Positions 10,551 through 32,618 of a DNA stretch of 64,000 nt are shown here, in pieces (the stretch's first letter is position 1; each line of letters starts with the position of its first letter). A program made the translations under genes and the position numbers. The notes beneath the pieces are model-generated. The model did no database searches and was not told the origin of the DNA. It saw nothing but the letters and a program-made list of their open reading frames with translations. Source of the DNA: Mesostigma viride (Eukaryota; Streptophyta; Mesostigmatophyceae; Mesostigmatales; Mesostigmataceae); the NCBI GenBank assembly GCA_009746045.1, contig RPFO01000059.1, forward strand, positions 2,650,068 through 2,714,067, read 5' to 3'.

Positions 10551-11123
10551 TGTTACGCCGCGGATATCTACCTCCACCTCTACCTCTAATGGGCCTGATA
10601 CTACCTAAACTGGTAAGGCCGCCTCTACTCAAACCTCTGGCGAAAGACGAACGTGACGGAGCTGATCTCAATGCATTAACATATGTGTTACTATAATACG
10701 CCATACAACCATTTACCAAAACCCGTTTACTCCAGGAATAGAGGAAGGAAACACAACTACACTGCCGTGACCCAAGCCTAAATGTGTTAATTCATTTAAC
10801 ACACGCCGAGTGCACACACGAGGGGTAGAACGTGCATAAATGGTCACCAACGGTCCAACACGCTCGGGCCGACATGGCCCTCGCCTACAGATGCACGCTG
10901 GTCCACTACATCTACAGATGCACGCTGGTCCACTACATTCTACCAAAGGATCACGACCACTAGTAAAGTACACGGCGCGGCGCCCCAAAGGCACCCAATG
11001 TACCACGGTACTGTTACGAGGACAATAGTGTCCCGGTAGGAGCTACACGTAAACCTAGGGACAACCGAGGCAAAAGACCTAATTTACGTCCGTAACTACA
11101 ACGAATTGTTACGCGACGTAACA
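10551..11123 (-). repeat. 3' LTR of Gypsy-B copy 1 (573 bp)
   Basis: The ends TGTTACG...CGTAACA are inverted repeats of each other with TG/CA termini. It is nearly identical to 47157-47729; a few single-base differences were seen (for example ggtaaggcc versus ggtcaggcc). Preceded by TSD CCTAG. Confidence 0.9.
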
Positions 11124-11140
11124 CCTCCCCCCCCACAAAG
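11124..11140 (-). promoter_or_regulatory. Polypurine tract of Gypsy-B copy 1
   Basis: The minus strand reads ctttgtggggggggagg directly before the 3' LTR, the expected place for the plus-strand DNA primer. The same tract sits beside the LTRs at 48065 and 54614. Confidence 0.75.
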
Positions 11141-11492
11141 GTAGGGAGCCCTCTCCCTACGCACAGGGAGGTAACAAAGGAGTAGGAAACCTAATGCACC
11201 CAGCACACACCAACACAATCGGCAGACCATCCAAGATACAAAGCACCAATAGTTCACACGGTCTCCACCACCACGCCGGGAGGTGTAGGGTTAGCCAGCA
11301 CCAAGCCTGGTGGTAGGTTCCCCTAACTGCCTGGAACAAAGTCCTTGCCGGGGGGAACGGCACTGGGCAGGACACACAGAGTAAACACATCAGCACCAAG
11401 GACCAAGAACGACCAGTCAACTGGCCAGCACGTGAGGGCGACTCTATATACCGGAGGGACAACACCCTCAGGTCGGGCCTAAGGCCCTCTAT
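11141..11492 (-). other. 3' untranslated region of Gypsy-B copy 1
   Basis: Sequence between the ORF3 stop and the polypurine tract. It is conserved in copy 2 (54631-54982) and, more diverged, in the copy C remnant (48082-48435). No further ORF recognised. Confidence 0.6.
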
Positions 11493-13943
11493 CTAATGGC
11501 CATCCGTCTGGTAGGTACCACGGGAGGCCAGCAGGACATCCAGGTACGCCTGGTAGTGAGACACATCCTCAGCATTGTCGTGCCTATCTACAGTGAGGAA
11601 AACATCGGCCCACACGCCGTCAGGGAAAAGACCCAGGAAGGCCCAGTAATACCTATGCTGCGTAAGAACGACCTGGCCCCGGGCCCAGTCCAGGAAACCA
11701 CAGGCAAAGAGGCGTAGGAAAGGCTCTACCGCGATCAGGCAGAGAGCCCGCAGGAGCAGGCGATGGTACCGGATCCGAGGGCGCATACCCGTCGGGAAAA
11801 ACAAATCTACCAAGGGCTCCACGTTGGACGGCCACAACCTAATCTGCCGAATCTCACGGGAGCGCCACCGACGGGCACACTGTCGCGACCCGAACGTCTC
11901 GAGGTAGTCGCTAGCCCGAGGAGGAGGATGACCCCGCGAGTCCAAACCCTGGCCCGGGATGGGCGCTGGACGACGGGCATCCCACTCTAGGATGGGCTGA
12001 AGGACCGTGCTGTACGTGGCACCCGGCACCGCAGGAAACTCTACCGTAAGGGCATCTGAGGCCGTAATGCCCAGAGGCGGAGGGTAAGCCCACTGGAACC
12101 CGCCGTAGGTGTCCAAGTCATTGTGGCGCCTAGCCCAGCGATACAGGACGCGCCGCACCAGGATCTCACCCTGGAACACCGGATCAGCTAAAATAACCAT
12201 GTCGAAAGGAGGCCGATCAGTCTCAACTGGTAGGCCACGGTCCCGCGGCGCCCGACACACCTGGGAGAACCCGTAGGACATGGGCGAAATGGCAAGCTCG
12301 GCGGAGGCGCGCGGCAGGTCACACTGGCGGCAGGCGAGCGCAGACATACCATACCCAAAGACAGGCGTGTCGCGCGACTCCGGAGTCGCATGCACCACAG
12401 AAGGGGCCCGATCCCGATCGCCCTCTGACAACTCCCGAAGGGAATCGGCAGCACGGGTGGCGCGCGGGTCAGCGCCACTGGACCGAACAACCGCGGCCAA
12501 AGATCGCGGGGCCGAAGGGACAGGGGCCGACGAAGGGGTAGGAACCGGCACAGACGCAGACGGCGCCGGTACAACAGGGGGCCGCGTCGGACCCGATGCC
12601 GCAGGGGGACGCGACGGACCTGCCTCCGCAACTGGCGCGCCGGTCTCTGGGGGCGGAGCACCACCAGGCCACATGTTGAAAATAGGGCCCGTGGGGACAG
12701 GCAAACCGGCATACGACTGGTTACCGTCCAAGCTCCAGTCAGGCACCGGGATCCTCTGCGGAGGACCGCCCTCCCAAAGCCTGGGAAGACCGCCCGGGTC
12801 GCTGAAGAAACCCCGCGAGGGCGGCGCTGACGTGGTGGGCGGCTCGGACGCGGCGGCGACGGGCGCGGCCGCTGGGACGGTGGACTCGCGCCGAGGCACA
12901 GGTACGTCAGTAGCAGGCGCAGAGGTAACCGAAGGCGTAGGAGCCGCAGCAACAGAGGGAGCCACAGCCGCCGAGGGCTCGCGCGGCCCAGACGGACCCG
13001 TAGACGCCGAGGCGACCGAAGGGGAAGGGGACACAGCTGCGGCAGACACCCCACCTGGCGTGGCTGGAGCGTGCGCCTGGGCCGCCATGAAGGCCCCGAA
13101 GGCCGCCGTCAGGGACTGGATCTGCGCCTGCATCGCAGAAACTGTCGCCGCAAGAGGATCAGGCTCACGACCAGAGCCCGAAGGGGTAGGCTCCACCGAT
13201 GCGCACAGGACCGACCTCGGTGAAGACGGGACAGGGGAAGGCGCCGACACTGAAGAGGAGGACGCCGCAGGGGAGGCCGAATACTCAGGGGAATACTGTG
13301 CCTCTACCGGCGCGTCCGTAGGGGTAGGGTCGCCCAATCCTACGCCCGCGTTCTGGTCTGCTATCTCCATGAACTCTACGGCCCGTAAAAGGTCGCAGGG
13401 GTTCTCATCCATTTCCGCATCACCCTCGGCCGGAAGCCAGGGGAACACATCCCGTAGGCAGGAGCGGCCCACAGGGGTAGAAAGGTAGGAAAACACCCTG
13501 GGGCACTGGAGAATCGCAGCTATCTGTCCCAGGGCTGGACAGCTGGAGCCACATTCTAGCAAACAGTGGCCGGCATCGTCGAACCCGTGCAAAACAAGCT
13601 GATGCGGTTCAGCAGGGGAAGGACCGTACCACGTGACCCCGAAGAGAGCCGCCCTGACTATGCCCGAATGCTGGGCCTGGAGGGCCGGATGCACGACGCC
13701 ACCCGGGAAACTGGACCGTGACACCCAACGGCCCGGAAGGGCCTCGAAGTACAGCTCAGGGTCCGGTAGGGGCAGGGACGGCAGCGGGCTCTCAGCCGGA
13801 GGGGTAGGCTCTGACATGACGGCTGCGGAGGGGAGGGGACAACCAACCACCCGTCGACAGCAGACATAACATAAGAGAGGAGAAGGCCTACAACTAGAGC
13901 TTGTGCAGGGTTTTATATTCCTGCAGCAGGCGACTACACCCAT
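11493..13943 (-). CDS. Gypsy-B ORF3, unknown protein downstream of pol (copy 1)
   Basis: 816 codons from the first ATG. The more likely start is the Met at residue 43 (13817, MSEPTPPAES), which lies just after the pol stop and has a better context. N-terminal about 150 residues: a compact region with conserved Cys, Trp and Gly (ALFGVTWYGPSPAEP). Middle: long Pro/Ala/Ser-rich linker with a short predicted helix (MQAQIQSLTAAFGAFMAAQA). C-terminal about 270 residues: a folded-looking region rich in Arg, Trp and Tyr (RYYWAFLGLFPDGVWADVFL). I see no transmembrane segment or signal peptide, so it does not look like an envelope protein despite sitting at the env position. Open in both full copies. 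Function unknown. Confidence 0.72.
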   Translation of the reverse strand: MGVVACCRNIKPCTSSSCRPSPLLCYVCCRRVVGCPLPSAAVMSEPTPPAESPLPSLPLPDPELYFEALPGRWVSRSSFPGGVVHPALQAQHSGIVRAALFGVTWYGPSPAEPHQLVLHGFDDAGHCLLECGSSCPALGQIAAILQCPRVFSYLSTPVGRSCLRDVFPWLPAEGDAEMDENPCDLLRAVEFMEIADQNAGVGLGDPTPTDAPVEAQYSPEYSASPAASSSSVSAPSPVPSSPRSVLCASVEPTPSGSGREPDPLAATVSAMQAQIQSLTAAFGAFMAAQAHAPATPGGVSAAAVSPSPSVASASTGPSGPREPSAAVAPSVAAAPTPSVTSAPATDVPVPRRESTVPAAAPVAAASEPPTTSAPPSRGFFSDPGGLPRLWEGGPPQRIPVPDWSLDGNQSYAGLPVPTGPIFNMWPGGAPPPETGAPVAEAGPSRPPAASGPTRPPVVPAPSASVPVPTPSSAPVPSAPRSLAAVVRSSGADPRATRAADSLRELSEGDRDRAPSVVHATPESRDTPVFGYGMSALACRQCDLPRASAELAISPMSYGFSQVCRAPRDRGLPVETDRPPFDMVILADPVFQGEILVRRVLYRWARRHNDLDTYGGFQWAYPPPLGITASDALTVEFPAVPGATYSTVLQPILEWDARRPAPIPGQGLDSRGHPPPRASDYLETFGSRQCARRWRSREIRQIRLWPSNVEPLVDLFFPTGMRPRIRYHRLLLRALCLIAVEPFLRLFACGFLDWARGQVVLTQHRYYWAFLGLFPDGVWADVFLTVDRHDNAEDVSHYQAYLDVLLASRGTYQTDGH

Positions 13944-14855
13944 CTAGCTCACTCTCCGTATACCAAACCTTATCTACTTCACTACGAGCATACATCCACT
14001 TCACTTTATACTGACGCTGGGTACCGCGGCCCTTTTTGATATCTCTATGGGCCACGATGCTTTCTACTTCGTCTTCTACTTCCCCAGTGTCAGGGTTATG
14101 CTCTAAAGGGGCAGGCGCTAGCTCTCTACCAGCGAACGTACTAGGGTGGTACAGTTTCAGCTGGCTCCTATGGAAGGTGTTCGAATGTGTCTGCCAAGAG
14201 GTAGGGATATCGACTTTATATAGGAAATTTCCTACTCTAGACAAAACATGGAAGGGTCCTAAGAAGGCGGGCCTAAGTTTGACCTTAAGTTCTGCTTCAA
14301 ACTTATGAGCAAAACGGCCAACACGGGGGCCTTCTACTAATACTAGATCTCCTATTTCTATCTCAGGTGCTCTTCTATCTAAGGAGGCACGCAACCTAGC
14401 AAGGTACTTAGACTGAGCTTTTTGGTACCCTGAGATCGCGTGGTCATGAGCAGTTTTCATTCTATCTAGTAAGGACTGTACACCTTCTACAGTATCTCGG
14501 GACACATCATCCTTGTCCCGTAGAGGACTAGCTAAGAGAGAGGTAGGGGTAAGGGGCTGTCTACCAGTATCTAGGAAGAAGGGCGTATATCCATGCGCAG
14601 CCTGGGGGCAATTGTTGAGGGAGAATTCTACTAAACATAAATAATCCTCCCAATCACTTCCCGAGCCTTTCACATAGTGCCTAAGCGCTTCTTCCACTAC
14701 CCTATTAAGACGCTCTACTAAATGAGAGGAAGAGGAGTGGTAGGCAGTACCGTAGGTAACCTTGGTACCGATGGCAGCGAAAAACTGCTGCCAAAAATCT
14801 GAGGTAAATAACTTATCCTTATCACTAATAAACTGCCTACTCAAACCATGATATC
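13894..14855 (-). pseudogene. Gypsy-B copy 1 integrase C-terminal half with chromodomain (cut by Gypsy-MT)
   Basis: Continues the integrase core from the second catalytic Asp (FISDKDKLF) and the Glu (HLVERLNR), through a GPF module (FLGPFHVL), to a chromodomain-like end (YKVKWMY and LLQEYKTLH). Its N-terminal half is 18 kb away at 33067-33813, separated by Gypsy-MT with TSD TGTA. The chromodomain marks the element as a chromovirus; such domains bind modified histone tails and bias insertion to heterochromatin. Confidence 0.85.
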
Positions 14856-14859
14856 TGTA

Positions 14860-15998
14860 TGTCACGGACGCGCGCTATGTCATCCGGGCGCCCACTATGC
14901 ACAAGACCGGTGACGTGCGCAAGGAATTTGTCTTCTACGCATTTTCGACAAAGGCTAGTGACCGGGGGGGGACACTAGCACTTGCAGCATAAGAGCGGAC
15001 GAAAGTGTACGTGCACGCGCGCCGGGCCAGGCACAGCTGGGCGCGCAGCACTGACTTGAGCGGACGGCAGCACAAGTGTGCAGCGTCGAGAGGATCATAC
15101 GCGTGTTAGTGGACAGCTGGAGCTGAAGCTGGACTGCTGGACTTCAACAGCGCCGAGGCTATTGACAGGCCAGGTGTCTTTGTGGTGTAGAATAGCGGGT
15201 CAACGTTATGAGGACTGGACAGAAAATGGAAAAGGACAATTTGCGGTGCGGAGCCAGATCGCTGGAATGAATGCGAAATCGCTGGCAGCCCTAAAAAGGG
15301 ATTTCTTCTAGAAAGGAACGATTAGACGCAATGTTTGCTGGGCCACTCACACGCAAGGTGTGAGCGTGCAGATTGTCTGAAGGATATTATGCTTCGACCT
15401 TGCTGGACGTGACTCAATGTCGGACATTCCCAGGGACAGAAATGCCGGAGCCTCTAGGAGATGAGATCGGCAACAGGGTAGCAATTTAGATTTGTCGGGA
15501 TGCCTTCCTGCTTTTGTTGGCATGTGTGGTAGAAAGCCAGGACGGCAACTGGAATGCGGTTTCTATTCGCATGGTTCAGGCAGCAAGATAGTTTTGGCAT
15601 TCCTGGCTGGACTGACAAGTGTGGCGTGTGTCATGCGTGTGGCATGACGAATGGTTTGGTTCATAGTCGAAGAGGACTCTCACGCAGCGTGTAGTCTCTT
15701 CGAGTCTCTCGTTAGTGGCCTTCGTGTTTCTCCCTTTCCTTGGGAGCAAGGCCGGTAGCATGTCATGGAGCGCTGCCTAACTGCGGGCTCGTGAGCATGG
15801 AGTGCATCGATATTGAGACTATCAACGTGTTGTAATTGTATTAACTTTCTCAATAAACTCCGCATGTGCGGCTTCATCATCAGACTGTGCAAAGTATGTG
15901 TTTTGAAAGCATTATTCTATAGCAGGGGAGGCAATAAGGTGGTTATCAGGCACGAGGGACAGTTCCTTGTCCTCGGCTGAGAGCCCTCCTTTCTTTAC
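14860..15998 (+). repeat. Gypsy-MT repeat A1 (5' LTR equivalent, 1139 bp)
   Basis: Matches A2 nearly base for base over its whole length. Differences seen include a G8/G7 run near 14964 and 24413, tagtcga versus tagccga, and gtattaac versus gtataaac. It lacks the 141-bp B segment that completes the 3' end. A 77-codon frame at 15078-15311 is identical in A2 but has no coding signature. Confidence 0.88.
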
Positions 15999-16011
15999 TC
16001 GAAGAGACTAC
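15691..16011 (+). promoter_or_regulatory. Self-priming site of Gypsy-MT: 15-nt complementarity between the LTR and the primer-binding position
   Basis: gtagtctcttcgagt at 15691-15705 is the exact reverse complement of actcgaagagactac at 15997-16011, which begins at the repeat/leader boundary where a primer-binding site belongs. No TGG-type tRNA site is present there. In the Tf1/sushi group the first bases of the mRNA pair with the primer site and prime reverse transcription; by analogy the transcript would start near 15691. A short hairpin (gactac-ccg-gtagtc) overlaps the site. Confidence 0.6.
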
Positions 16012-16322
16012 CCGGTAGTCTGCTTCCTTCTGTTCGAAGCCAAGACGTTGGCTTTAGTGTTTAGCAACCATCAGCAGTACAGGGAACGGCCTGGCTGACA
16101 GTTTGTAAAGGAAGTGTCTTGAGACAGATTTTAAGAAAATAGAACTAGCCAGAATTTGCTGGCTCTTGTCTTTTTCTGGCAGGCTAGTCGAGTCGTTATC
16201 CTTGACACCTGTTATAAAGCCTTTGGTTGTTGCTTCTTCTCAGCGAAACCTAGGCTTGTTGGTTCTTGTTTTGCCCATCGGTCAGCTGGTGCATGCCACT
16301 GACGCGAGCGCAGACTCGAGCC
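16012..16322 (+). other. 5' leader of Gypsy-MT
   Basis: Untranslated region between the putative primer site and gag. No ORF of note. An earlier in-frame ATG lies at 16293, but the ATG at 16323 has the better context (GCCATGG). Confidence 0.6.
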
Positions 16323-18101
16323 ATGGCAGATGCAAATAGAGCAGATGCCGACACGTCCGCTCCGGGGTCGAATGGCGGGATTCCTCCCGCCGTACCCGCA
16401 GTGGGTGAGAGTCGCGACCAAGAAGCGCCGCTGAGTATGGTGGCGCTGTTCGCGCAGATGCAAGCGCAGATGCAGCAACAGTCGCAACAGTTGCAGCAGC
16501 AATTGGCGCTGCAGATGCGGGAAGTGACCGACAGATTGGTGGCCGTAGAGGGTCGTCATCTGCAGTCCACACCATGGGACGGGCAGGCATCGATGCCGGG
16601 CCCCAGTGGTGTTGCCGCGGAGCCGAGGGAGCGGGACCAGCCGCCAACCTCAGGTAATGCGGCGGGAAGGGCTTCGATGGAACCGGGGGTTTTGGCTGGG
16701 TCGCTAACCCAACACGACTTGCTTGGTGAGGCGGATGGTCAGCCACGGGGCGAGTATACGCTGGCGCCCAGGCGCCTGCCTTTCGATCAAGCGCGAGACG
16801 GATTGCACGAGGAGAACGGGGCAGGGCTGGCGCGCGCGATGGACCCACACAGGGGTGCACCAGGACGCATGCTGCCAGGCGGGGCCTCAATTCCGTTTGG
16901 GCGAGGCGGTGGGGCGCTGACCGGCGGGTCGACTGCACGGTGGTCAAGTGTGCCAATCGGGCGCATTCCGCCCATGGAGGACATAACCACGCCGCTGGCT
17001 TTCCGAGTACGGGAGGCAGCACGACCAAGCACGCTGGCGCAGGGACGCGCAGCTCAGCGACCGCCGGAGGATGCCGATGGGGTGCAGTACCCGCAAAGGG
17101 TGCGCCTCATACCGGAAGGCGCGAAGATGCCCACCCTACCACGGGTGGACATGCGCGAGAAGTTCTCCACAACCGGCAATCTGGCCACGCTGGCGCAGGC
17201 CTACAACGCGTACAAGTCATGGATTGATCTGCAATACATGACTACGCAAGGCGCTGTAATGCATGAGTTTGTGATGAACAACATGCATTTTTTCTTTCAC
17301 GGCCTTACGCTGAGGCGAGTGGCTAGGCTGGTGGAGCAGTGGAGAGAGGTCTCGCTGTACACGCGTCACACGGACGTGTGGTTCGGCTTCGACGGGCGTG
17401 GCCAGCCCGACTATGACAACATCATGTATGGTGTCGACCCTGCCGAGGAACTGTGGGGCCTCCTTCGCCAGGAATACCCGGTGGAGACCATCAAGGCAGA
17501 GCGTGAGTGGCGCAGTTTCAAGATAGCCGAGGGTGAAACCCCGGAGCAATCTTACGAGCGCCTCATGGAGTTCGCCGGCGAAGTGGAGGACTGGTCCGAA
17601 AAGCTGGCGTGTCAGAAATGGCTGCAAGCGCTAGGCTCCAAGGAGATGGAGCTGCCCACGCCGCCCAACGGCCAGCCGTGGCGATTGCGGTCACTGTGCA
17701 TTGAGGTCAGGGCCATGATGCGACGACACGCGCAAGGCCGGATCTCGGTAAGCACGGTGGTGGCCGAGCTGCAGGCCAAGGTCGACGCGCTGACCAAGGC
17801 CAAGTCGGGTGAGTCGTCTGCCACAAGACAAGCGCGCCCGCAAGGCGGCCACGGTGCTAGCAGGAACCAAGGGGGGTCTCGCAACGCCTCATCGCATGAT
17901 GCAACCCAGGGTAACGCCGCTGGCGGCAACAAAGACGCTGCCGCCCCGACGCGAGCTGGGGGGGCACGTCCTCACAGACGGGTACTAGGACGGATGCGCG
18001 CAAATCGGGCTGCTTCCTTTGCGACAAGGATGGGCACCTTAGTCGCGAGTGTCCAAGCCGCTGCACGAAGCCGCATGGGGCAGACACGAAGTGGCACCTG
18101 A
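16323..18101 (+). CDS. gag: Gypsy-MT gag (capsid/nucleocapsid)
   Basis: 592 residues from the ATG in GCCATGG. A Gln-rich coiled coil (MQAQMQQQSQQLQQQ) is followed by a proline-rich linker and a helical capsid-like region (about residues 270-500, FRVREAA to VEAEWRS-like motifs such as EREWRSFK). The CCHC zinc knuckle (CFLCDKDGHLSREC, about 18011-18052) is not in this frame. It lies in the -1 frame, the frame of the downstream pol ORF, and the shift point is a G7 run at 17958-17964. The gag stop and the next ATG overlap as TGATG at 18099-18103. So either a -1 frameshift joins gag to knuckle-protease-pol, or one G is missing from the assembly. Confidence 0.8.
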   Translation: MADANRADADTSAPGSNGGIPPAVPAVGESRDQEAPLSMVALFAQMQAQMQQQSQQLQQQLALQMREVTDRLVAVEGRHLQSTPWDGQASMPGPSGVAAEPRERDQPPTSGNAAGRASMEPGVLAGSLTQHDLLGEADGQPRGEYTLAPRRLPFDQARDGLHEENGAGLARAMDPHRGAPGRMLPGGASIPFGRGGGALTGGSTARWSSVPIGRIPPMEDITTPLAFRVREAARPSTLAQGRAAQRPPEDADGVQYPQRVRLIPEGAKMPTLPRVDMREKFSTTGNLATLAQAYNAYKSWIDLQYMTTQGAVMHEFVMNNMHFFFHGLTLRRVARLVEQWREVSLYTRHTDVWFGFDGRGQPDYDNIMYGVDPAEELWGLLRQEYPVETIKAEREWRSFKIAEGETPEQSYERLMEFAGEVEDWSEKLACQKWLQALGSKEMELPTPPNGQPWRLRSLCIEVRAMMRRHAQGRISVSTVVAELQAKVDALTKAKSGESSATRQARPQGGHGASRNQGGSRNASSHDATQGNAAGGNKDAAAPTRAGGARPHRRVLGRMRANRAASFATRMGTLVASVQAAARSRMGQTRSGT

Positions 18102-21100
18102 TGAACAAGTGTCCAGCCGCGGGCATCAAGACGGTCCACTTCGCCGAGATGGCGGGCAAGACCGACTCGATGGAAGCCCAGGTGGCTGCCATCAAGCATG
18201 GTGAGGAGGCGACGGCGCCCCCCAACCAATTCGAGACGGTGTACCGGGAGGACCCATTCTGGGCGCCCATGCCGGGTGACGTCGAGATCAACGCTGCGGA
18301 GGCTACCAAAGGCAAGCAGGCACGCAGCCCGCTTTCTTTTCAGCAGGCACCCATGTTGCCTGCCGGGCAGTTGCCCGCGTCCTTTTCCATGCCGCTGGCT
18401 GGGGTGCAATCTGCTTTTGAGCATGCGAACCCTGCTGGGCTGGAGCAGCGTAGGCGATTGGCGCCTGTGTACCCAATGCCGTTCATTGTGGACGTACCCA
18501 TGTTTTCAGCACGGCAGGTGGTCGACACCTTCGGGCAGAAGGGGGTTGAGTGGCTGGGGTCGGTTGTGTCCGAGATCCAGTTGTTCGCAGATGGGCATGA
18601 TGTGCGCACCTTGCGCAATTCTGAGTCCGTCACCTACGGGCGCCAGCCGGTAGAAGCCGCAGTGCCCGTGGTGCAAGCGGGAGTGGTCAGCACAAGTAGC
18701 CAGCAGCGCACTAGTGCAGTCCCCCAGGTTCCCACGGTGGTTCCATACCCCAATGGTGAGCCGTCCATGGCGTTCCAAGCAGTTGGAGCCTGTGGAGATG
18801 TATGGAGCGACATGGTGACATGTCCGTTGGTTGGCGCAGTCAAGCTTGATAGCGGTGCTCAGCCGCTAGTCATCAGCACGGACTTGGCCACCATGCTGAA
18901 CCTGACCTACGAGAACGGTGGCTTAGTGGAAAGCCCCGTGTCTGTGTCAGGTTGGCAGGGTCCGGCTAGTAAGCCGTACGCTATGACGGCGGTTAAAGTC
19001 AACGTGATTTTCAATCCGTTGCGCGCCTCTAGCATGACCACCGTGTCCGCGTATGCGCTGGTGGTCAACAAGTGTGGATATTCCGCACTACTCGGGGTGG
19101 ATGTCCTTGCTCGCGCCATGGTTCAGGTGGACTATAGGGCGGAGGAGGCATCTTACATCCCTGATTGGGATGGGGCTGGCCTGAAGCGGGCCAGCGTGCC
19201 GGTCTCATGCTTCAGTTCTTCAGCCGGGGCTGCACGCCTCAACCCTTCCGCGGCTGCGGGCGTGGTGGAGGTCAGCATGGTGGAGGTACGGGCGGCGGGC
19301 TCATCGGCGTGGGACAAGCATCGGACGGTGCTGCCCCAGCCAACGGCGAGCATTGCCAAGATGCGCACGCAGTGGTCGCTGGATGCTGTGACGTCCACGC
19401 GGCAGCTGGCTATGCGCAAGCGGGTAACTGAAGCCGTCATCACCATTCCTCAGATGGCCAGCCATGGCCTCACTTTGCTGCAACCGGGTGTCTCGGAGGC
19501 CCAAGGTAATTTTTCTGCTGCAATCTTACCGCAGGCCCCTGATTTTGCCAAGGGTGCGGTAGTGTTGGAACTGTTTGCGGGGATCGGAGGGGGCATTGCA
19601 GGCTTTTTGGCCGCAGGCGGCGTGTGCCGTAAACTCATCGCGGTAGAGCCATCGCACAAGGCGCGTCAGGTGTACTTCAGTCACTGTGGCGTGTTGTCGC
19701 GAGAGTATCCCGCGCAGTTTCCGCCATCAGCATGGCGTGACCCGTTTGGGGAATGTCCTCAAGATATCCGAGCCATCGGTGAGGTGCAGGTGCAGCAGTT
19801 GTTGCGCAGGCATCATGCCATCGACTTGGTAATTGCGGGTTGGGAGTGCCAGGGCCTGAGCCAGGCAGGGCAAGGGCGGGGGCTAGCCGATCCGCGTAGC
19901 GCGCTGTTCTGGGAACTGTTGCGTGTGGTGGGACTGTTGCAGTCGCGTCAGCCCCATCCGCCTGCGTATCTGTTTGAGAACGTTGTGGCGGGTGACAGCC
20001 CACATCAGGCGGTGCGGGAGGACTGGGCTACAATCGTGGCACTCCTGGGGGAGCCCATCGTGTGTGACAACGCAGGGCTGGGTGGGCTCACGCATCGTTT
20101 GCGTGCCTATTGGACCAACGTGGCGTGTGCGACCGATGTGCAGGCGGTCTTGGGGGCCGTAGCAAGGCAGCATCCGAGTGTGTCTGCGGAGGTAGCATTG
20201 CCTTCCCACCTAGTCACGCAGAAGGTGGATAGCGAGGATCGCCCACCGTATGCACGCGTCAACCGGGTCGGGAGCCCCATGTGTGCACTGCCGACCCTGG
20301 TCAGTTACCAAGGGTCGACAGCATACCGTGATCGGGGTAAGGGTCTCGTTTGGGACACTACCACCGGTCTGTTGGTGCAGCCACCCGCAGAATTTCGTGA
20401 GGCCAGCATGGGTTTTCATGTCGGGGCCTCGGCGCTGCCGGGCGTGCTCGAGAGTGAGCGCTGGTCTTTGATAGGCCAGGCTATGTCGGTGTTGCAGGTC
20501 GGGTATGTGCTGCTTGCATCGGTTGCCGTGCGCCAGTCTGGGGGGGCGTCCCCAGCCAATCCGCCTCAGCAGGTTGAGGCGCGCGCAGCCAAACTGAAGC
20601 GCCCTGCAGCGACGGGGACTTCATCAGCATGGGGGTGGCGTCTGCGACAGGTGTGGACTATCATTCTCATGACCGCCCTGCTGACCAGCACCGTGCTGGC
20701 CGGCGAGCCCACGCTGCATCGGGTAATACACCGTGCGGCACGCGAGGCTCCGGCGGTGGGTGTCACACCAGGCGTGGCAGCCTTTTCCTTGTTCCACGAC
20801 GATGCGGCTAGGGCGCCGCATCTTGAGGCACATGCGGTAGCTGTGGGTGATCCCGCGGATACGCACCCCTGGGCTATTGGCGAACACCTTTCTGATGCGC
20901 AGCGCTCAGCCATGCTAAAGTGGCTAGGCACTGCAAGGGGGGCCTTCGCTTTCACAAGTGATGAACTGGGGTGTTTCAATGGTGGGACCATGCGTGTTCC
21001 ATTGGACACTGACACCCCTTTGTTCCGACGCCAGCATCGCCTGAGTCAGGCCGAGTTGGATTTTGTAGCCGAGCAATGCAAGGAGTTAGAGGATGCCGGT

Positions 21101-21502
21101 ATCATCAGGCAATCTTCCTCCAGCTATGCCGCTGCCGTTGTCGTTGCGCCCAAGAAGGACGCTATCACCGGGGCATGGACGGGTATGCGCATGGCCACCG
21201 ATCTGCGGTTGCTGAATGCACACACACCCGTGGACCGTTACCCCATGCCACGTGTGGATGATGTCCTGGATAAGATATCTCCTCATGTGAAGTTTGTGTC
21301 CTCGCTGGACCTGCGTAGCGGCTTTCATCAGATCGCAGTTGCGCCGGAGGATCAGCGGAAGCTTGCATTCTGGGGGGGGGCAATTTGTATGAGTGGGTGC
21401 GCATGCCCTTTGGGCACCGCAACGCTAGTGCTGTTTTCCAACGAGCTATGGACAAAGTGCTTGCAGGTCTTCCTTTCGCCGCTTGTTACATTGATGATGT
21501 AA
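18101..21502 (+). CDS. pol: Gypsy-MT pol, part 1: protease, C5-cytosine DNA methyltransferase, RT N-terminal half
   Basis: Residues counted from the ATG at 18101, though the open frame extends upstream through the zinc knuckle. Protease: LDSGAQP (Asp about 250) and LLGVDVL (about 331). Methyltransferase about 485-800: motif I LELFAGIGGG; motif IV WECQGLSQAG with Cys 583 (Pro of the usual PCQ replaced by Glu); motif VI FENVV; motif VIII HRLRAYW; late motifs REASMGF and LIGQAMSV. So all landmarks, including the catalytic Cys and the ENV Glu, are present. A hydrophobic stretch (VWTIILMTALLTSTVLAG, about 850-868) follows, then the RT fingers/palm (SSLDLRSGFHQI). The frame leaves the RT at a G9 run (21372-21380); the tail after it is out of frame. 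Retroelement-borne DNMTs are known from dinoflagellates and charophytes. Confidence 0.88.
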   Translation: MNKCPAAGIKTVHFAEMAGKTDSMEAQVAAIKHGEEATAPPNQFETVYREDPFWAPMPGDVEINAAEATKGKQARSPLSFQQAPMLPAGQLPASFSMPLAGVQSAFEHANPAGLEQRRRLAPVYPMPFIVDVPMFSARQVVDTFGQKGVEWLGSVVSEIQLFADGHDVRTLRNSESVTYGRQPVEAAVPVVQAGVVSTSSQQRTSAVPQVPTVVPYPNGEPSMAFQAVGACGDVWSDMVTCPLVGAVKLDSGAQPLVISTDLATMLNLTYENGGLVESPVSVSGWQGPASKPYAMTAVKVNVIFNPLRASSMTTVSAYALVVNKCGYSALLGVDVLARAMVQVDYRAEEASYIPDWDGAGLKRASVPVSCFSSSAGAARLNPSAAAGVVEVSMVEVRAAGSSAWDKHRTVLPQPTASIAKMRTQWSLDAVTSTRQLAMRKRVTEAVITIPQMASHGLTLLQPGVSEAQGNFSAAILPQAPDFAKGAVVLELFAGIGGGIAGFLAAGGVCRKLIAVEPSHKARQVYFSHCGVLSREYPAQFPPSAWRDPFGECPQDIRAIGEVQVQQLLRRHHAIDLVIAGWECQGLSQAGQGRGLADPRSALFWELLRVVGLLQSRQPHPPAYLFENVVAGDSPHQAVREDWATIVALLGEPIVCDNAGLGGLTHRLRAYWTNVACATDVQAVLGAVARQHPSVSAEVALPSHLVTQKVDSEDRPPYARVNRVGSPMCALPTLVSYQGSTAYRDRGKGLVWDTTTGLLVQPPAEFREASMGFHVGASALPGVLESERWSLIGQAMSVLQVGYVLLASVAVRQSGGASPANPPQQVEARAAKLKRPAATGTSSAWGWRLRQVWTIILMTALLTSTVLAGEPTLHRVIHRAAREAPAVGVTPGVAAFSLFHDDAARAPHLEAHAVAVGDPADTHPWAIGEHLSDAQRSAMLKWLGTARGAFAFTSDELGCFNGGTMRVPLDTDTPLFRRQHRLSQAELDFVAEQCKELEDAGIIRQSSSSYAAAVVVAPKKDAITGAWTGMRMATDLRLLNAHTPVDRYPMPRVDDVLDKISPHVKFVSSLDLRSGFHQIAVAPEDQRKLAFWGGAICMSGCACPLGTATLVLFSNELWTKCLQVFLSPLVTLMM

Positions 21503-24138
21503 TCGTCTTTAGCGCGACATTTGAGGAGCACCTGGCGCACTTGGAGCAGGTTCGCTTGGCTCTCGAGGAGCATAATATGCGGCTGCACCCTGAGAAGTGC
21601 AAGTTCGCCCAGCGGACCCTCTCATTCCTTGGTCATCAGATTGTGCCGGGTGGCCGGACGCCTGATGCCGCCAAGGTCGAATCCATTGTGCAGGCCGCCG
21701 TACCCACGGATGTCTCAGGGGTGCGGGCGTATTTGGGTTTGGCTGGCTATTACCGAGGTTACATTGAGAACTTCAGCAGCAAGGTGAAGCCCTTGACCGA
21801 GTTACTCAAGAAGGGGTGCGTGTGGGCGTGGGGTCCCGCACAGCAACGCGCCATCGAGACAATCAAGCAGGAGCTCACGTCGGCCCCGATTCTGCGCGCC
21901 CCTGACTATGCTTTGCCGTTTGTGTTATATACCGACTGGTCCAAGGTAGGACTGGGTGCGGTCTTGGCGCAAAAGGATGGTGATGGGCGCGAGCACGTTA
22001 TTGCTTATGCTAGTCGCAGCAACAACCCAGCGGAGAGCCGGTATTCTTCCTATGAGGGGGAGGCACTGGCTGTGGTGTGGGCCATCAAGCACTTTCGCCC
22101 GTATTTAGTTGGGCGCGTGTTTACTCTGGTGACAGACCACCAGCCGCTTCAGTGGCTAATGACCAACACCAACCTGACGGGTAAGCTCGCCCGATGGGCC
22201 ATGATTATCCAGGAGTACCACATGACCATTGTGCATCGGGCCGGCAAGGACCATGTCAACGCCGATGTGCTATCCCGATACGCCATGCCTACCACTGTTG
22301 ACCACACTGGAGCCCGGGCCATGGGTGCCGAGGGCTCGTCGGGTTCTGTGGTCTTTGTGAACGCTGCTGGGTATGCGGCCGACGATGAGGAGGAGGCGTG
22401 GTGGCGCAGTGTCGAGTACTCTGTGGCGGACTTCGGCATCAGCGACGACCCGGTGCGGCCGTCGCCATTCACGCCATCCAAAGCTGTGTGCGCTATGGAA
22501 GAGGGTAGGTCTCTGTCCTTTGACATTGATCCTTCTCTGCAGCAGCTGATCGCTGTGCAGGCTCTCTTAGCGCGTAGCTCTCTTGCTGATTGCTACACCG
22601 CTGATATCTGGCTAGATGGTCGAGTTTTGGAGCAAGTGCAGGGTGCTGTCTTGACTCCTACTCCAGTCGATTGGACTCCTGCTCAGAAGGCGACGGAGTT
22701 GAACAGGGTGCAGCACAGGGCTGCAACCTATGGTTGGGAAGATGGGGTTTTGTACAAGCTGTTGGGCAAGCGTAGGGTGGTCGTCCCACCGCCTGACAAG
22801 CGCGTTGCTATAGTGCAGGCGTACCACGAGCGGTATGGTCACTTGGGTGGCAATCGCACGCTCAGCCTCGTACGGACCAGCTATTGGTGGAATAACATGC
22901 GACACACAGTGGCCCAGGTAGTGGCCAGCTGTGTCCCGTGTGCTCGAACCAAGGCTAACTTTAGCGCAGATCATGGTGCCAAGGAGCTGATGTCGCTTCC
23001 CATCAAGGGCTTGTTTTATCGCTGGCACGTCGATCTGTGCGGGCCGTTTCAGGAGAGCCCTGACGGCAACCTCTATGTCATGGTATGCGTGGAGAGCTTT
23101 AGCAAATGGGTTGAGTTGATCCCCATTGCTGACAAGCATGCCGCTACCACAGCGAAGCATTTTGCAGACATCATCACCAGGTTTGGGGCTCCCGCGGAGG
23201 TAGTCACGGACCAGGGTGGTGAGTTCAGGGGTGAGTTCCAGGAGTTGCTGGATGGATGTCTTATTGATCACCGTCGCACTTCTCGGGAGCATCCTCAGGC
23301 CAATGGTTTGGCTGAGAGATTGGTGCAGACCGTCAAGCAGGCGCTGCGCAAGTGGAGCCTGCAGGTGCCGGAGTCGGCCAGGTGGGATCGCGAGTTGGCA
23401 TGGATTGCCATGGGTTATCGCATGTCTCCCCAGGAGTCTCTCGCTACCTTCTCCCCGTATTTCCTTCTGTTCGGGCGTAATCCTCTTTTGCCTACGGAGG
23501 CACAGGTTGCGCACCCCGAACCCATGGCCTTCGACAACGCTCAGCAATTTTTGGTTGAGGTGCTGGCCAGGGCAGAGACTTTTAAGAAGGTCATGCCCAT
23601 CGCGATGAACAACTTGTTCATTGCTCAGCACAGGGACTCCCTGCGTTACGCTCAGCGCCGGGGGGGCGCATACATGGCTCGCCAGCTGCGGTTTAGGCCA
23701 GGGCAGTATGTTTTCCTGCGCACTCAGCTGAAGCACACTTTGGATGTGGAGGCGGGGCCCACCATTTTGCGCATTGTGGCTATCAAACCATCGGGAGTGG
23801 CAATTTTGGAGGGCGCCGACGGGAGCCGTACGACAGACAACCTCAGCAATCTCAGTCCCTGCTCACTGCCCAATTTGGTCCACGACCTCCAACCGCACAC
23901 ATCTCGCCGAGTCAAGGACGCCCAGTGTCAGGTTTGTCACCGGGTCGATCAGGCGGAGTCCATGTTATTGTGTGATCAGTGTAACTGTGGTTGGCACATG
24001 CAGTGCTTGCAGCCCGTGGTCACCAGCATTCCGGAGGGGGATTGGTTTTGTCCAGTGTGCACCGCTGCGCAGTTTACCTCCCGCAGCTTGACTGCGGTCA
24101 CCGCTGCCCTTGTCTTGGTACGATCGCTGTCTTCGTGA
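21379..24138 (+). CDS. pol: Gypsy-MT pol, part 2: RT catalytic half, RNase H, integrase, PHD finger
   Basis: Continues the RT in the -1 frame after the G9 run. It holds YEWVRMPFG and the catalytic YIDDVIVF, then the RNase H triad (LYTDWSK, SYEGEAL, VTDHQPL). Integrase follows: H2C2 zinc finger (YGHLGG ... CVPCARTK), then the core D-D-E in WHVDLCGPF, VVTDQGGEF and GLAERLVQT. The C-terminus (about 848-893 counted from 21385) is a C4HC3 PHD finger: CQVC, LLCDQC, GWHMQC, DWFCPVC, with the conserved Trp. PHD fingers read histone H3 tails; here the domain takes the place that a chromodomain has in chromoviruses. Apart from the G-run shift all catalytic motifs look intact. Confidence 0.88.
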   Translation, partial: GNLYEWVRMPFGHRNASAVFQRAMDKVLAGLPFAACYIDDVIVFSATFEEHLAHLEQVRLALEEHNMRLHPEKCKFAQRTLSFLGHQIVPGGRTPDAAKVESIVQAAVPTDVSGVRAYLGLAGYYRGYIENFSSKVKPLTELLKKGCVWAWGPAQQRAIETIKQELTSAPILRAPDYALPFVLYTDWSKVGLGAVLAQKDGDGREHVIAYASRSNNPAESRYSSYEGEALAVVWAIKHFRPYLVGRVFTLVTDHQPLQWLMTNTNLTGKLARWAMIIQEYHMTIVHRAGKDHVNADVLSRYAMPTTVDHTGARAMGAEGSSGSVVFVNAAGYAADDEEEAWWRSVEYSVADFGISDDPVRPSPFTPSKAVCAMEEGRSLSFDIDPSLQQLIAVQALLARSSLADCYTADIWLDGRVLEQVQGAVLTPTPVDWTPAQKATELNRVQHRAATYGWEDGVLYKLLGKRRVVVPPPDKRVAIVQAYHERYGHLGGNRTLSLVRTSYWWNNMRHTVAQVVASCVPCARTKANFSADHGAKELMSLPIKGLFYRWHVDLCGPFQESPDGNLYVMVCVESFSKWVELIPIADKHAATTAKHFADIITRFGAPAEVVTDQGGEFRGEFQELLDGCLIDHRRTSREHPQANGLAERLVQTVKQALRKWSLQVPESARWDRELAWIAMGYRMSPQESLATFSPYFLLFGRNPLLPTEAQVAHPEPMAFDNAQQFLVEVLARAETFKKVMPIAMNNLFIAQHRDSLRYAQRRGGAYMARQLRFRPGQYVFLRTQLKHTLDVEAGPTILRIVAIKPSGVAILEGADGSRTTDNLSNLSPCSLPNLVHDLQPHTSRRVKDAQCQVCHRVDQAESMLLCDQCNCGWHMQCLQPVVTSIPEGDWFCPVCTAAQFTSRSLTAVTAALVLVRSLSS

Positions 24139-24155
24139 TGGGGCCGGTCGCCAGC

Positions 24156-24309
24156 GAGGGGGGGAATCATGGGACAGGTCCTCGCCCACCCCACAGGGCA
24201 TGCAGTTAAGGCAGGCACATCAGCTCAGCTCATTTGGGTTTTACCAAATTAAGCTGAGTGGCCAGCCGCCATGGTGGCGCCGGAGATTGTGGCACGCAGA
24301 CGCGACAGC
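24156..24309 (+). repeat. Gypsy-MT polypurine tract and B1 segment (141 bp) with palindromic junction
   Basis: GAGGGGGGGAA at 24156-24166 is a polypurine tract. B1 starts right after it (24167, TCATGGG) and ends GCGACA at 24307. Two bases (GC) separate it from TGTCACGG, the start of A2, so the junction reads GACAGCTGTC, a perfect palindrome that looks like a joined pair of integrase ends. B1 is repeated as B2 at the far right end of the element. An imperfect hairpin (agctcatttgg/ccaaattaagct) lies within it. Confidence 0.75.
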
Positions 24310-25144
24310 TGTCACGGACGCGCGCTATGTCATCCGGGCGCCCACTATGCACAAGACCGGTGACGTGCGCAAGGAATTTGTCTTCTACGCATTTTCGACA
24401 AAGGCTAGTGACCGGGGGGGACACTAGCACTTGCAGCATAAGAGCGGACGAAAGTGTACGTGCACGCGCGCCGGGCCAGGCACAGCTGGGCGCGCAGCAC
24501 TGACTTGAGCGGACGGCAGCACAAGTGTGCAGCGTCGAGAGGATCATACGCGTGTTAGTGGACAGCTGGAGCTGAAGCTGGACTGCTGGACTTCAACAGC
24601 GCCGAGGCTATTGACAGGCCAGGTGTCTTTGTGGTGTAGAATAGCGGGTCAACGTTATGAGGACTGGACAGAAAATGGAAAAGGACAATTTGCGGTGCGG
24701 AGCCAGATCGCTGGAATGAATGCGAAATCGCTGGCAGCCCTAAAAAGGGATTTCTTCTAGAAAGGAACGATTAGACGCAATGTTTGCTGGGCCACTCACA
24801 CGCAAGGTGTGAGCGTGCAGATTGTCTGAAGGATATTATGCTTCGACCTTGCTGGACGTGACTCAATGTCGGACATTCCCAGGGACAGAAATGCCGGAGC
24901 CTCTAGGAGATGAGATCGGCAACAGGGTAGCAATTTAGATTTGTCGGGATGCCTTCCTGCTTTTGTTGGCATGTGTGGTAGAAAGCCAGGACGGCAACTG
25001 GAATGCGGTTTCTATTCGCATGGTTCAGGCAGCAAGATAGTTTTGGCATTCCTGGCTGGACTGACAAGTGTGGCGTGTGTCATGCGTGTGGCATGACGAA
25101 TGGTTTGGTTCATAGCCGAAGAGGACTCTCACGCAGCGTGTAGT
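24310..25144 (+). repeat. Gypsy-MT repeat A2, left part (split by Copia-1)
   Basis: Matches 14860-15695 of A1. It is interrupted at GTAGT (25140-25144) by Copia-1 and resumes at 32619 after the duplicated GTAGT. Confidence 0.88.
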
Positions 25145-25772
25145 AGTTAACGAAACTGTGGCTGAACTGTGGTTCAGCCTGCACTGATTAATATCTACAG
25201 AGGAAGTAGTTATATTAATCAATAGGTTTACGTTGCTGGTTATGGCTACCAGCACAGAACGCACAAGGCACGTGAGAATCGTCGCCGAAGGTGCGAGGAC
25301 ACAGGTGCAGGGAAAGTGGTGCTACCAAGTGGCAGCGTCCTGCTCGTTATATACTAATTGTGACGCAGTCACATCCAGATGACTGATAGGACAGATCATC
25401 TCACAATATTGCTGTCCTTCACTCTGGACCAGCAGATCTCGACTCGTTATCCATAAATAGTCACATCAGTGTCCTGTCGCACAAGTCCTGTCACTATTTG
25501 TTACGTCTAATCAATAGCATTGAATAGACCGCAGTGTCGGAGACTAAATGTCCTATCGTACACTGTGACAAGACGTCGTATGCCACGCGTCACTTGAAGA
25601 ACCACCGTAGAATCACTGAATCCAAGTAGAATGTAGTAGAACAGTATCTTGCTCACATCTCGAGCAATACTCATCAGAATGAACCCGTTTCTGGATTGTA
25701 GTAACCGGAAGTAGAATCTCTACAAGCCAAGTAGCTTAGTAGAATAATATTGCTTGCCAGGCAATATTAACT
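25145..25772 (-). repeat. 3' LTR of Copia-1 (628 bp)
   Basis: Starts AGTTAACG and ends ATATTAACT (plus-strand reading). Same length as its partner at 31986-32613. Confidence 0.92.
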
Positions 25773-26548
25773 CCAGCCCTTTCTTCTCTTTTAGAGCTTG
25801 GACATAACAGCCATATTAACTCCAGCCCTTTCTTTCTTTTAGAGCTGTTAGGCTTGGCAACACATATATAGAAACAACATGCATAGCACTTGACATCCCT
25901 CCCAGCTCTCTGTAGTCTCTGCTCGGGATTAATCAAGCACCAGATCACAACACATCTCAGCCATGACGAATTACAATGAATTCCCTATCCACTGGAAGTA
26001 GAAAGCCAAGTGTTTGGAGTAGCAGCTTGTGGCTAACCAGAATAATGACCAAAATGGAATCACCACCATAATGGCTCCTGATTGGAACCCCACAAGTTAC
26101 CCACAAGACCTTATCAGGTAGACATTGATAGTTATCAGAACTGGCGCCCACCATGGACTGAGAAATAGCACATCACAAAATATATTAAGCACATGACAAA
26201 CTACCTTCCTCTGTCTGGGACAAAACTAGGGGGACCTGTCGCCACCTCACCAGCAAGGTTGATGGGTCAGCCAATCCGGGAAAATCCGCCTAAGCAGCCC
26301 CAGGGAATCGAACCCTGCCCTATAAAATCCCTTTGGTTGAGACAAACCTCAAACTGAGGACAAACCCCCAACCAACATCATGCTCCATGACTGAGCATTA
26401 CATAGAATACAGTATTATACACATATGTACACAGAGCATTACTGCCCTCAGAGCAACACAGCTCTCAGCATAACAGAGCCCAGCTCTATGTTAGCTCTTC
26501 TCACCCAATCAGTCATCAAGCTCAAAGCTCCAACTGGAATTGCTCAAC
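25773..26548 (-). other. 3' UTR of Copia-1: polypurine tract (duplicated with the LTR edge) and tRNA-like B-box motif
   Basis: On the minus strand a purine tract (aaaagagaagaaaggg) adjoins the LTR. The tract plus about 12 bases of the LTR edge is repeated at about 25812-25846. Near 26300-26318 the minus strand reads agggttcgattccct, a perfect T-arm-like stem-loop containing the Pol III B-box consensus GGTTCGATTCC; the same motif is at 36722-36742 in Copia-2. No matching A box or full tRNA fold was found. The rest shows no gene. Confidence 0.6.
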
Positions 26549-29500
26549 TCACACAGAGGAGCTCATCAGCTTGTAAAGAAGCTTATATTGCTCAGCAGAC
26601 TTGTGAGGCAACTTGGTCAAGGCATCAGCAGGATTCTCAGAACCTGGAAGATGTTGAATATCCACCAGACCTGCCAACTCCTTCAACAGGAGATAATCCA
26701 GATCTCTGCTTCTGGCCAACTGCTTGTGCACAAACTGGACCATACCCATGTTATCTGAAAGGATCAAGGTTTCCAGCTGAAGAGTATGAGGAGTCACTGA
26801 AGCCATAGCTAGCAACAGCTCCTTGATGTACAAACTAGACTGAATCCCTTCACAAATGGCTCTGCACTCAGAGACATCTGAACTCACAGCAACCCTTCTT
26901 TGAAGACGACTGTACCAGGCCACAAGACTAGGCCTATGTTGCTGAAGCACAAACAAGCCAGCTGACCTGCCTCTGACCTTAGAAACTTGCCTGCTATCCA
27001 TGGAGCTATCAACATAGATATCCAAGGAAAATGGCAAAGACAAATCTATCCCAGCTAAAGTAATACCAGGAGACTTGTTAACATGTGCAATAATCTGGGA
27101 AGGCTCCTCCAGAATTAGCACATCATCAGGGGATCTGCTATGGACCATCATGTCAGGCCCACAAATGCTGCCATACCAGGCCAACTTGCCTTTCAGCTCA
27201 GGTGCAATGGATGACGTCATGACCTCTGGAACAGATTGAAGAATGGTACTCTTGTAGTCATTGCCCGCCTGCAGCTTAATCAGCCACTGACTCCCCTCCT
27301 GAACCAATGTAGCCTGCATTCCACAGAACGTGACAGCCTCTCCAGGCTTCTGCCACAATTCTTTTCCCAAAGGAAATGCATCATTAATGATGGGCACAAA
27401 CTGACTCAACCACTTAGTGGGAGCAATCAAGTGCAAGTCATCACCATGCAGGCTAGCATACACAGGTAAATCATGCCACCTACCCAGCAATAAACATGGG
27501 TCCACAGATGACACCTTCAACCCACAGTGTTTAGTCAAGAAGTCTTCCAAGGTGAGCCTCCAAATGATGGGACTGGACCTGAGACCTTCTAGACCCTTCA
27601 GAATCAGCAGGTAGCTAGACTGGAGCTCTGCCTGCCAGGCTACAGGAACTGGCACATGAAATGGAGTTTCACAATGCCACACCTGCTGAGCCACACTGGG
27701 ATCACCCTTCAGAAATGCTCTCTTGAAATCTAGCAGAACTGAAGACACATCAGCACCCTGGTTCAGCATACCGACATACAGGCACAATAAAATACGCCAT
27801 GTATCATGTAGCATCCCAGGTGTATACAACTCCTCGCCCAGAAGATCCCCAGTACCACGGTATTCATTAAGAACTGGACGCACATGGGGAACAGACACCC
27901 CCTCCACCTCCTTCCGCTTGATGACGAATCTGAGCTTCAACCGTGTACTGTATGGAGGAACTTCATTCACAGGCTGACAGCAGTCAAACTGCAACCACTC
28001 CTCTAGGGCCTTGGCAAATGCTAGCCTCCAGGCCTCAAACATCAGAGGAGAACTCATTTCCTGGACAAGCTGATCATAGCTAAGAGGAGAATGAGCAGCC
28101 AGTGATCTCTTAGTAATACCAATACTGCTAGGATGAAGAGCAGCTGGCATCACAAGACTGGAAGCCACAGGAATCTGATCCTCAGGCCACTGCACATTCC
28201 TGATCGCTTTCACAGAGAAAAAATTAAGATTCAGGGCCCTGAAGTTAGTCAGTGGAATGCTACCCCAACCCTTACGAATAAGGCTATGAGATACAACCAC
28301 AACTCCAGGGGTGCAAAGAAAATTCTGACCCAAAATGATAGGGCCATCGTAATCTTCTAGCACTAGGAAGGAAACATCTACACCCATAAATGGTAAGATG
28401 ATTTCTCCTACCACTTTCATATGAACCCTGCCACTAAAGTCAGACACCCAGGAACAGCTAGACTCGCCAATCTGCCGCTGCCCTGTATGCTGAGACCCCA
28501 TGATTGAGACCTCTGCATTGGTATCTACTTCTAGTGCAGTGCACTCGGACTCCCCCAACTGGCTGAGCTTGGACACCCGAGGCTTTTGCTTGGCTTTTTG
28601 CATAGCCAGCACCACATCTTTCAGGCCCACACCTCTATGCTTAGTGAGGCTAGAGGGGACCACATCTGCCTGCTCTAAATCTGGAAAGTTAACCGGTCCA
28701 GGGGTCTGGCCAGGACTTACCCGGGGATTACTTCCAGCCGGAACGTGATGATCAGGGATGACGTCATGACCAACTGGCAAGGTTGTCACATCAGGAGTTA
28801 CTGCCTCTGCTTCAGCACCCCTTAGACGTACATATGACCACGACAGACGGTGCACATTCTGGGGAGGATCCTCCATCTTCACCCAGCACTTGTGCCCAGC
28901 TAGTTCCACCCTGGTCACTACTCCAGGGTGCCAGCTACCACGCTTGCCTGCAAGCTTGGGCTCTTTCCACACAATTACCCTCTGGCCAACAACAGGTTTC
29001 AGAACACTCCAGCCCTTGTCTTTCTGCCTCAACTTGGCAAACTTGAACATAAGGCTATCTTTCCAGGCTTGCTCAACCTCAGTAGGGAGCTCCCGAAGAT
29101 GCAATGATAATGGAGTCACAGGGACCTCTCCAACATACATGGGTGCCCTGACATTCAATCTGTCCTCAACTGACCTTAACCAGGCCGTCTTGATAATAGC
29201 TGGAACCAATCTTGGAATCTTCTTCTCCGTCAGCAGAATAGTCTTGAGCTCTCTGATTGTCCTCTCCACCACGCCTTGACTGCCATGGGACTCCCTGTGT
29301 ACAACAAATAACTCAGGGAGGTCTTCATGCCCCATGCAGCACTCAAATTCTAAATCACACTGCAGCTGGATCACTGGTTTCATTCTGGATCTGATAGCCT
29401 GGAGCCCAGCCACCAAACATGGCTTAGATTTGTCTTGCAACAGCTCCAGCACCTTGTACTTGGTGTATCTGTCAACACCCACCAACAAAATCAGTTTCCT

Positions 29501-32613: not shown

Positions 32614-32618
32614 GTAGT

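Follow-up and report, generated by a model that had tools for sequence, protein, structure and literature searches.

The element that occupies positions 14860-33062 of the window (the whole 64,000-nucleotide stretch of Mesostigma viride DNA analysed here) belongs to a green-algal clade of Ty3/Gypsy-type retrotransposons with a DNA methyltransferase (MT) and a PHD finger and has been active recently, and the pairing of these two domains in a Gypsy element is conserved and widespread. Pfam searches on the frames give the order gag-PR-MT-RT-RNaseH-integrase-PHD, with the protease weakly matched, and bear out the proposal of a first-pass annotation, made from the letters only, that one Ty3/Gypsy element encodes both domains (PF00145, E=3.1e-11; PF00628, E=4.3e-9). 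The split direct repeats of the element and their circle-like junction were not mentioned in that annotation. The features of the element are as follows:

14856-14859, no strand: left target site duplication, TGTA, from comparison of the flank with the uninterrupted chromovirus copy (58312-58314 region)
14860-15998, + strand: repeat A1, left end, starting TGTCACGG; 3 mismatches in 1138 against A2
15691-15705, + strand: putative 5' end of the RNA (start near 15691); 15 nt perfectly complementary to the primer site
15852, + strand: AATAAA in A1
15997-16011, + strand: putative self-primer binding site at the A1 end, complementary to 15691-15705
16254-18101, + strand: gag frame, 615 aa from stop to stop, called gag by its position
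17915-21502, + strand: first part of the pol frame, with zinc knuckle, protease-like region, methyltransferase and RT start (RVT_1 piece)
18008-18058, + strand: zinc knuckle, just below the Pfam cut-off
about 18842-19102, + strand: protease-like region, below the Pfam cut-off
19502-20524, + strand: DNMT3-type C5 cytosine methyltransferase, PF00145
21319-24138, + strand: second part of the pol frame, with Pfam matches to the remaining RT (RVT_1), RNase H, H2C2, rve and PHD
21829-22218, + strand: RNase H (Pfam)
22783-22962, + strand: H2C2 (Pfam)
22999-23478, + strand: DDE integrase core (rve, Pfam)
23917-24066, + strand: PHD finger, C4HC3, PF00628
24154-24166, + strand: putative polypurine tract GCGAGGGGGGGAA, directly 5' of B1
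24167-24307, + strand: repeat B1, ending GCGACA, identical to B2 over 141 bases
24308-24309, + strand: GC spacer in the palindromic B1-A2 junction (GACA-GC-TGTC)
24310-25144, + strand: repeat A2, first part, by match to A1
25145-32613, - strand: nested LTR element within A2, with LTRs at 25145-25772 and 31986-32613 that are 99.68% identical
32619-32921, + strand: repeat A2, second part, by match to A1
32922-33062, + strand: repeat B2, right end, ending GCGACA, identical to B1
33063-33066, no strand: right target site duplication, TGTA

The assignment to Ty3/Gypsy rests on a single pol with RT, RNase H and then H2C2/DDE integrase. The element departs from this group in that no identical LTRs directly border the internal region; instead, the window has the split-repeat layout A-int-B-A-B with outer ends TGTC...GACA. 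Compared with Pfam up to E 0.1, the three frames gave no tyrosine recombinase and no Chromo match after the integrase, where the PHD finger stands instead. The gag frame has no Pfam match. In the window copy pol is divided into two frames that are offset within RT and that were searched separately. Both frame overlaps contain poly-G runs (at 17958 and 21372), a third run at 20540 leaves the frame unbroken, and the frame lengths 1042 and 1195, which recur among genomic copies, reflect slippage or assembly error.

The MT lies between protease and RT, as the first-pass annotation had placed it, and retains motif I, the motif IV Cys, the motif VI ENV, the motif VIII R-x-R and motif X together with a DNMT3-like fold. 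DNMT3A/B are its top PDB matches both by sequence and by fold, with 16-24% identity to the animal proteins in structure alignments. The window copy has the catalytic Cys, the ENV Glu and R-x-R, as do most relatives that cover them. Motif IV of the window copy reads ECQ, in which Glu replaces the usual Pro before the catalytic Cys, and for this reason catalytic activity is not to be assumed. Among 27 element-type MTs covering the motif (a tally that keeps near-duplicates in and comes from an alignment omitting 8 MT rows), this residue is Glu in 16 and Pro in nine, and the motif is lost in two, both of the Volvox group. In the Volvox-group proteins P0036 and P0044, and in P0077 where visible, the MT is partly kept, motifs IV and VI are lost and R-x-R is altered. 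Judging from these residues, the MT of P0036 and P0044 is probably a dead, DNMT3L-like methyltransferase within a retroelement; its partial retention suggests that it either decays as the need for it relaxes or plays a structural part.

The PHD finger satisfies the C4HC3 pattern and is located after the integrase, in agreement with the first-pass annotation; this place behind the integrase C-terminus is that of the chromodomain in chromoviruses. The closest solved PHD fingers are those of BAZ2B (E=5.7e-16), Lid (1.9e-14) and BAZ2A (3.8e-14), with CHD4, ATXR5 and WSTF also near, and several of these read H3 tails in which K4 is unmethylated. In an alignment of 56 PHD fingers C4HC3 is largely conserved, and the window PHD is close to BAZ2 and Lid, i.e. 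akin to the BAZ2/KDM5-PHD1 type. It is plausible, as suggested earlier, that the element may methylate itself and select the chromatin into which it inserts: the MT has a DNMT3-type fold and keeps the catalytic Cys, and the PHD finger, which has H3-tail readers as kin, stands at the chromodomain position. Two observations are against self-methylation or neutral: the exchange of Pro for Glu in motif IV, and the absence of CpG depletion. The observed/expected ratio of CpG amounts to 0.79-0.90 for the element, compared with 0.43 for the nested LTR element and 0.70 for the chromovirus, and the element is therefore unlike a target of long-lasting CG self-methylation. CpG depletion was accordingly dropped as a methylation footprint: it is not seen in the element, and the copies are too young to judge.

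The element is present in many copies. Of 517 candidates for MT copies in the 440-Mb assembly (2243 contigs), 118 were scored, which makes the counts lower bounds, and there are at least 118 matches, each with 341 of 341 residues, free of stops and with an identity printed as 100%; some of these matches are on short contigs and may not represent separate insertions. Since 39 of the 118 scored copies have a 2074-aa frame that holds the MT and equals the whole pol length, intact copies exist. The EukProt protein P0001 (Mesvir1) covers 79% of the window MT used as query, with an identity likewise printed as 100%. Twenty of the 118 copies, chosen on large contigs, were inspected at both sides; with a probe that includes the whole PHD, the finger is complete in 16, partial in one and outside the extracted stretch in three. 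The first-pass annotation had named a missing MT profile match, or other copies without both domains, as what would speak against it. The profile match is significant, the complete PHD in 16 of 20 MT-bearing copies shows that this is no chance insertion, and a chance fusion or a single odd copy is ruled out by the joint presence of MT and PHD in many copies and relatives.

The split-repeat layout was read from the window and from these 20 Mesostigma copies. The window copy is inserted inside an older chromovirus, another copy of which shows the unfilled sequence. At the left, A comes first with no B before it in all 17 copies in which this end is seen (in 3 of 20 the A start is not in the extracted stretch). 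At the right, B-A-B is found in 13 of 20 copies, including one (L092) with about 90 bases separating A and B; otherwise B-A-B is cut by the stretch (1/20), only B is present (2/20), or the repeats are absent from the stretch or interrupted (4/20). The spacer at the B-A junction is GC in 14 of 14 readable copies. A 4-bp duplication lies exactly at A1 and B in 11 of the 12 copies with both ends, and also in the window copy; the twelfth has none. Both A-int-B copies have the duplication and may have arisen from a circle with one repeat or through a later B1-B2 recombination event. As A1 and A2 differ by only 17 mismatches in 10226 sites over nine copies (0.17%), the burst of these elements is recent.

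The complementarity between 15 nt at the end of A1 and positions 15691-15705 suggests self-priming, which in this form we take to be Tf1-like; an equally long match occurred in 0 of 300 mononucleotide shuffles of A1. A tRNA primer was rejected, as the TGG-like stretch near 15940 lies within A1 and the 15-nt self-primer fits the A1 boundary better. The nested LTR element, which has its own 5-bp duplication, GTAGT, and is not part of the studied element, entered A2 exactly at the putative RNA start; its long frames have no Pfam match at E 0.001, and by eye only it is Copia-like. In total, the split repeats, the TG...CA ends, the 4-bp duplications and the self-priming site point to a circular intermediate despite the DDE integrase.

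Relatives were sought in three protein searches, each scoring the best roughly 8000 candidates by shared words, so that counts are lower bounds. With the integrase-PHD part as query there are at least 112 protein matches; among the 112 listed, 20 have both MT and PHD (in P0034, P0068 and P0069 the MT piece is just 52-64 residues), three have the MT only, 35 the PHD only and 54 neither. The PHD-only group includes one host KDM5-like protein, and many of its members are truncated upstream, before the MT position. The named hosts are Volvox africanus, V. reticuliferus, Chromochloris, Klebsormidium nitens, Pseudoscourfieldia and the liverwort Calypogeia; among these, MT and PHD occur in one protein in V. 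reticuliferus (P0036) and Chromochloris (P0047), while Closterium gag/PR-MT proteins were found via the MT searches. The window copy, P0021, P0033 and P0058 have the MT ahead of RT; eight proteins in which RNase H and integrase are both visible have it between these two, and 13 more have it before the integrase.

Several relatives vary this architecture. P0047 has a G-patch between MT and integrase, and P0064 a PTM/DIR17-like Tudor domain after the PHD. In the sister elements P0078, P0079 and P0082 the PHD stands before the integrase rather than after it, and no MT is seen. P0081 (Pseudoscourfieldia) has an MT and no PHD, and its post-integrase tail resembles, by eye, another SAM-dependent methyltransferase. 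P0005 (Closterium sp. NIES-54) joins an MT of this kind to a Copia-type gag (PF14223, E=1.6e-17); either the MT may have passed from one retroelement order to another, or the model of this gene is a chimera. For P0009 (MT only) and P0029 (integrase-PHD) the longest contig is given as 9646 bases in both cases, and the two may come from one element.

In MT trees the element-type MTs form one clade, supported at 100/99 both for 21 rows set against phage and bacterial MTs and for 20 rows when a partial DNMT3A is included. The first tree was built after removal of 16 short or near-duplicate MTs, and P0044 was also taken out before the second. Another retroelement domain is present in the same protein for 17 of the 20 element-type rows; the tree label 'PR-MT(-RT)' is a guess for P0008, P0009 and P0011 (MT alone) and for P0005 (Copia-type gag). 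Because these MTs form one clade, the tree, which is without algal host DNMT3s, favours a single MT capture over an acquisition confined to the K. nitens lineage. In the same setting the partial DNMT3A row groups with phage MTs (90/83). With the same profile the best viral-contig MT scores 65.9 bits vs 65 bits for DNMT3A, and the phage rows are a biased sample, found with patterns from element MTs (80 of 106 relatives kept). A phage or bacterial origin of the MT is not favoured by these trees, in which the element-type MTs are a clade apart from phage MTs and DNMT3A. The RNH-MT-IN elements are united in the MT tree (97/95), whereas a single clade of them is rejected in the integrase tree (p-AU 0.00014); thus, the history is not simply vertical, and the trees suggest that modules may have been exchanged between elements. 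On a single move of the MT from a place ahead of RT to one ahead of the integrase the trees disagree: the MT tree suggests it and the integrase trees contradict it.

Gypsy elements bearing a Dnmt3 are already known, as the first-pass annotation had said of captured methyltransferases in general: de Mendoza et al. 2018 (PMC5890265) describe KnitGypsy-Dnmt3 of K. nitens, a Gypsy element with a Dnmt3-class MT and, in the Fig. 4 legend, with repeats laid out as in DIRS. The window element shares with it the Dnmt3-class MT in a Gypsy pol and the DIRS-like repeats; the MT clade reported here is much wider than the acquisition in the K. nitens lineage proposed in that paper. The main text of PMC5890265 has 0 occurrences of PHD and of Mesostigma, and its discussion of cDNA methylation mainly concerns Symbiodinium DIRS elements. 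P0058 of K. nitens, which has the MT before RT and 50% identity to the window integrase part, is at a guess KnitGypsy, although P0058 is not named in that main text; it ends before the PHD position, and P0058 and P0065 end too early or have a changed end. A 2025 survey mentions DNMT3 in 'LTR Copia and DIRS' elements (PMC12344493). The PHD pairing is unreported in our literature search, which covered subscription papers thinly and found no report of a Gypsy MT and PHD pairing or of its chlorophyte spread.

Compared with chromoviruses, the window element likewise has a histone-reading module behind the integrase C-terminus, but this is a PHD rather than a chromodomain, and it has an MT and split repeats rather than plain LTRs. 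With the DIRS/PAT/Ngaro group it shares the split repeats, in the order A1-ORF-B1-A2-B2 according to PMC4157794 and PMC6681497, and some of that group, including SymbioDIRS-Dnmt3, carry a methyltransferase domain; that group encodes a tyrosine recombinase and, according to one of these papers, lacks the integrase gene, in contrast to the DDE integrase and 4-bp duplications of the window element. The combination of split repeats with a DDE integrase goes against the usual tie of this layout to tyrosine-recombinase elements. Animal DNMT3A/B resemble the window element in MT fold and motifs and in the logic of reader plus writer, and differ in that the window motif IV has Glu before Cys and the PHD is joined to the integrase, not to the MT. 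The ADD module of animal DNMT3 reads H3K4me0.

Combining these data, we suggest, as the reading that we find moderately probable, that this is a circle-integrating Gypsy element in which the MT marks new DNA and the PHD tethers integration to H3 tails. In this model, (i) the RNA would start within A1 and prime its own reverse transcription; (ii) with the polypurine tract before B1, ordinary reverse transcription would yield BA-int-BA, the repeat being B-GC-A; (iii) the cDNA would close to a circle, which the integrase would open at the palindromic B-A junction to give A-int-B-A-B; (iv) the MT would mark freshly synthesised DNA in linear or circular form, probably at CG, such that the methylated element DNA would resemble host DNA or methylation would set a later chromatin state; and (v) the PHD behind the integrase would keep the integration complex on H3 tails, most likely those unmethylated at K4. 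Reader and writer on one polyprotein would, by analogy, recreate the logic of animal DNMT3. More tentatively, and as a scenario that we are inclined to doubt, a green-algal lineage may have changed from linear-LTR to circle-based integration with a DDE integrase, with MT and PHD as part of the switch: the circle would be methylated while waiting in the nucleus, and the PHD would bring it to H3K4-unmethylated chromatin. If so, MTs would go with split direct repeats and circular DNA generally (DIRS/PAT, SymbioDIRS and the Mesostigma-type clade), whatever the recombinase.

An MT and a PHD in one protein need not act together. The PHD could be an old integrase tether and the MT a later hitch-hiker, their pairing reflecting phylogenetic inertia; we hold this to be possible but rather unlikely. 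The 35 of 112 listed matches with a PHD and no MT in the same protein, many of them cut upstream, fit this idea, as do P0078, P0079 and P0082 with their PHD before the integrase. It accords less well with the retention of the MT across wide divergence within the clade and with the 49 more distant matches (P0083-P0131), which have no MT and a PHD in only one, a host protein. It is improbable, in our judgement, that the MT serves the host side by damping the element, and perhaps its neighbours, after insertion, with less harm and better persistence as the result and the PHD as no more than a tether of the integrase. A version of this, slower retrotransposition via the MT, is raised as an option in PMC5890265, where silent elements, KnitGypsy-Dnmt3 copies among them, are also reported to carry CHH and CHG methylation; the very recent burst in Mesostigma does not suggest strong self-silencing.

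Alternatively, the MT could be a relic or a structural, DNMT3L-like part and not an enzyme. The Glu in motif IV of the window and the Volvox-group proteins P0036 and P0044, which lost motifs IV and VI yet keep much of the domain, lend this some support; still, the catalytic Cys, ENV Glu and R-x-R are kept in the window copy and most relatives covering them, no stop interrupts the MT in 118 of 118 scored copies, and PMC5890265 reports purifying selection on KnitGypsy MTs (Ka/Ks under 0.2), so that we give this explanation little credence. That assembly errors, or nested or tandem insertions, produced the split direct repeats is highly improbable: repeats assemble poorly, A-int-B alone is seen in two of 20 copies and right repeats are missing from the stretch in four, but 13 of 20 copies have the same layout, 11 of 12 two-ended copies have the 4-bp duplication at A1 and B, and PMC5890265 gives a DIRS-like layout for the element of K. 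nitens.

Our preferred reading remains that of a circle-integrating element with a self-directed MT and a tethering PHD. Mobile elements are normally silenced by DNA methylation, and an own MT and histone reader kept over wide divergence would reverse the usual arms race. The element provides a natural system for studying whether a retroelement that methylates itself is thereby protected, hidden or tamed, and whether insertions track histone marks.

The window contains further mobile elements. A chromovirus-type Gypsy element with a chromodomain (Chromo, E=3.7e-08) lies at 54038-63219 (- strand), and a second chromovirus copy, in which the studied element is inserted, is present in pieces at 10548-14860, 33065-35415 and 43537-46895. 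Nested in the same copy is an LTR-flanked stretch at 35448-43536 (LTRs 35448-36119 and 42864-43536, 99.70% identical), the 1196-aa frame of which has no Pfam match. A piggyBac-type transposase is encoded at 49382-51592 (+ strand; DDE_Tnp_1_7, E=1.5e-42). At 3466-6943 there is a GGT-rich tandem array of 3.4 kb with a GC skew near 0.78 and long open frames on both strands, and it is adjoined by a frame with thrombospondin type 3 repeats at 7510-9126 (- strand).
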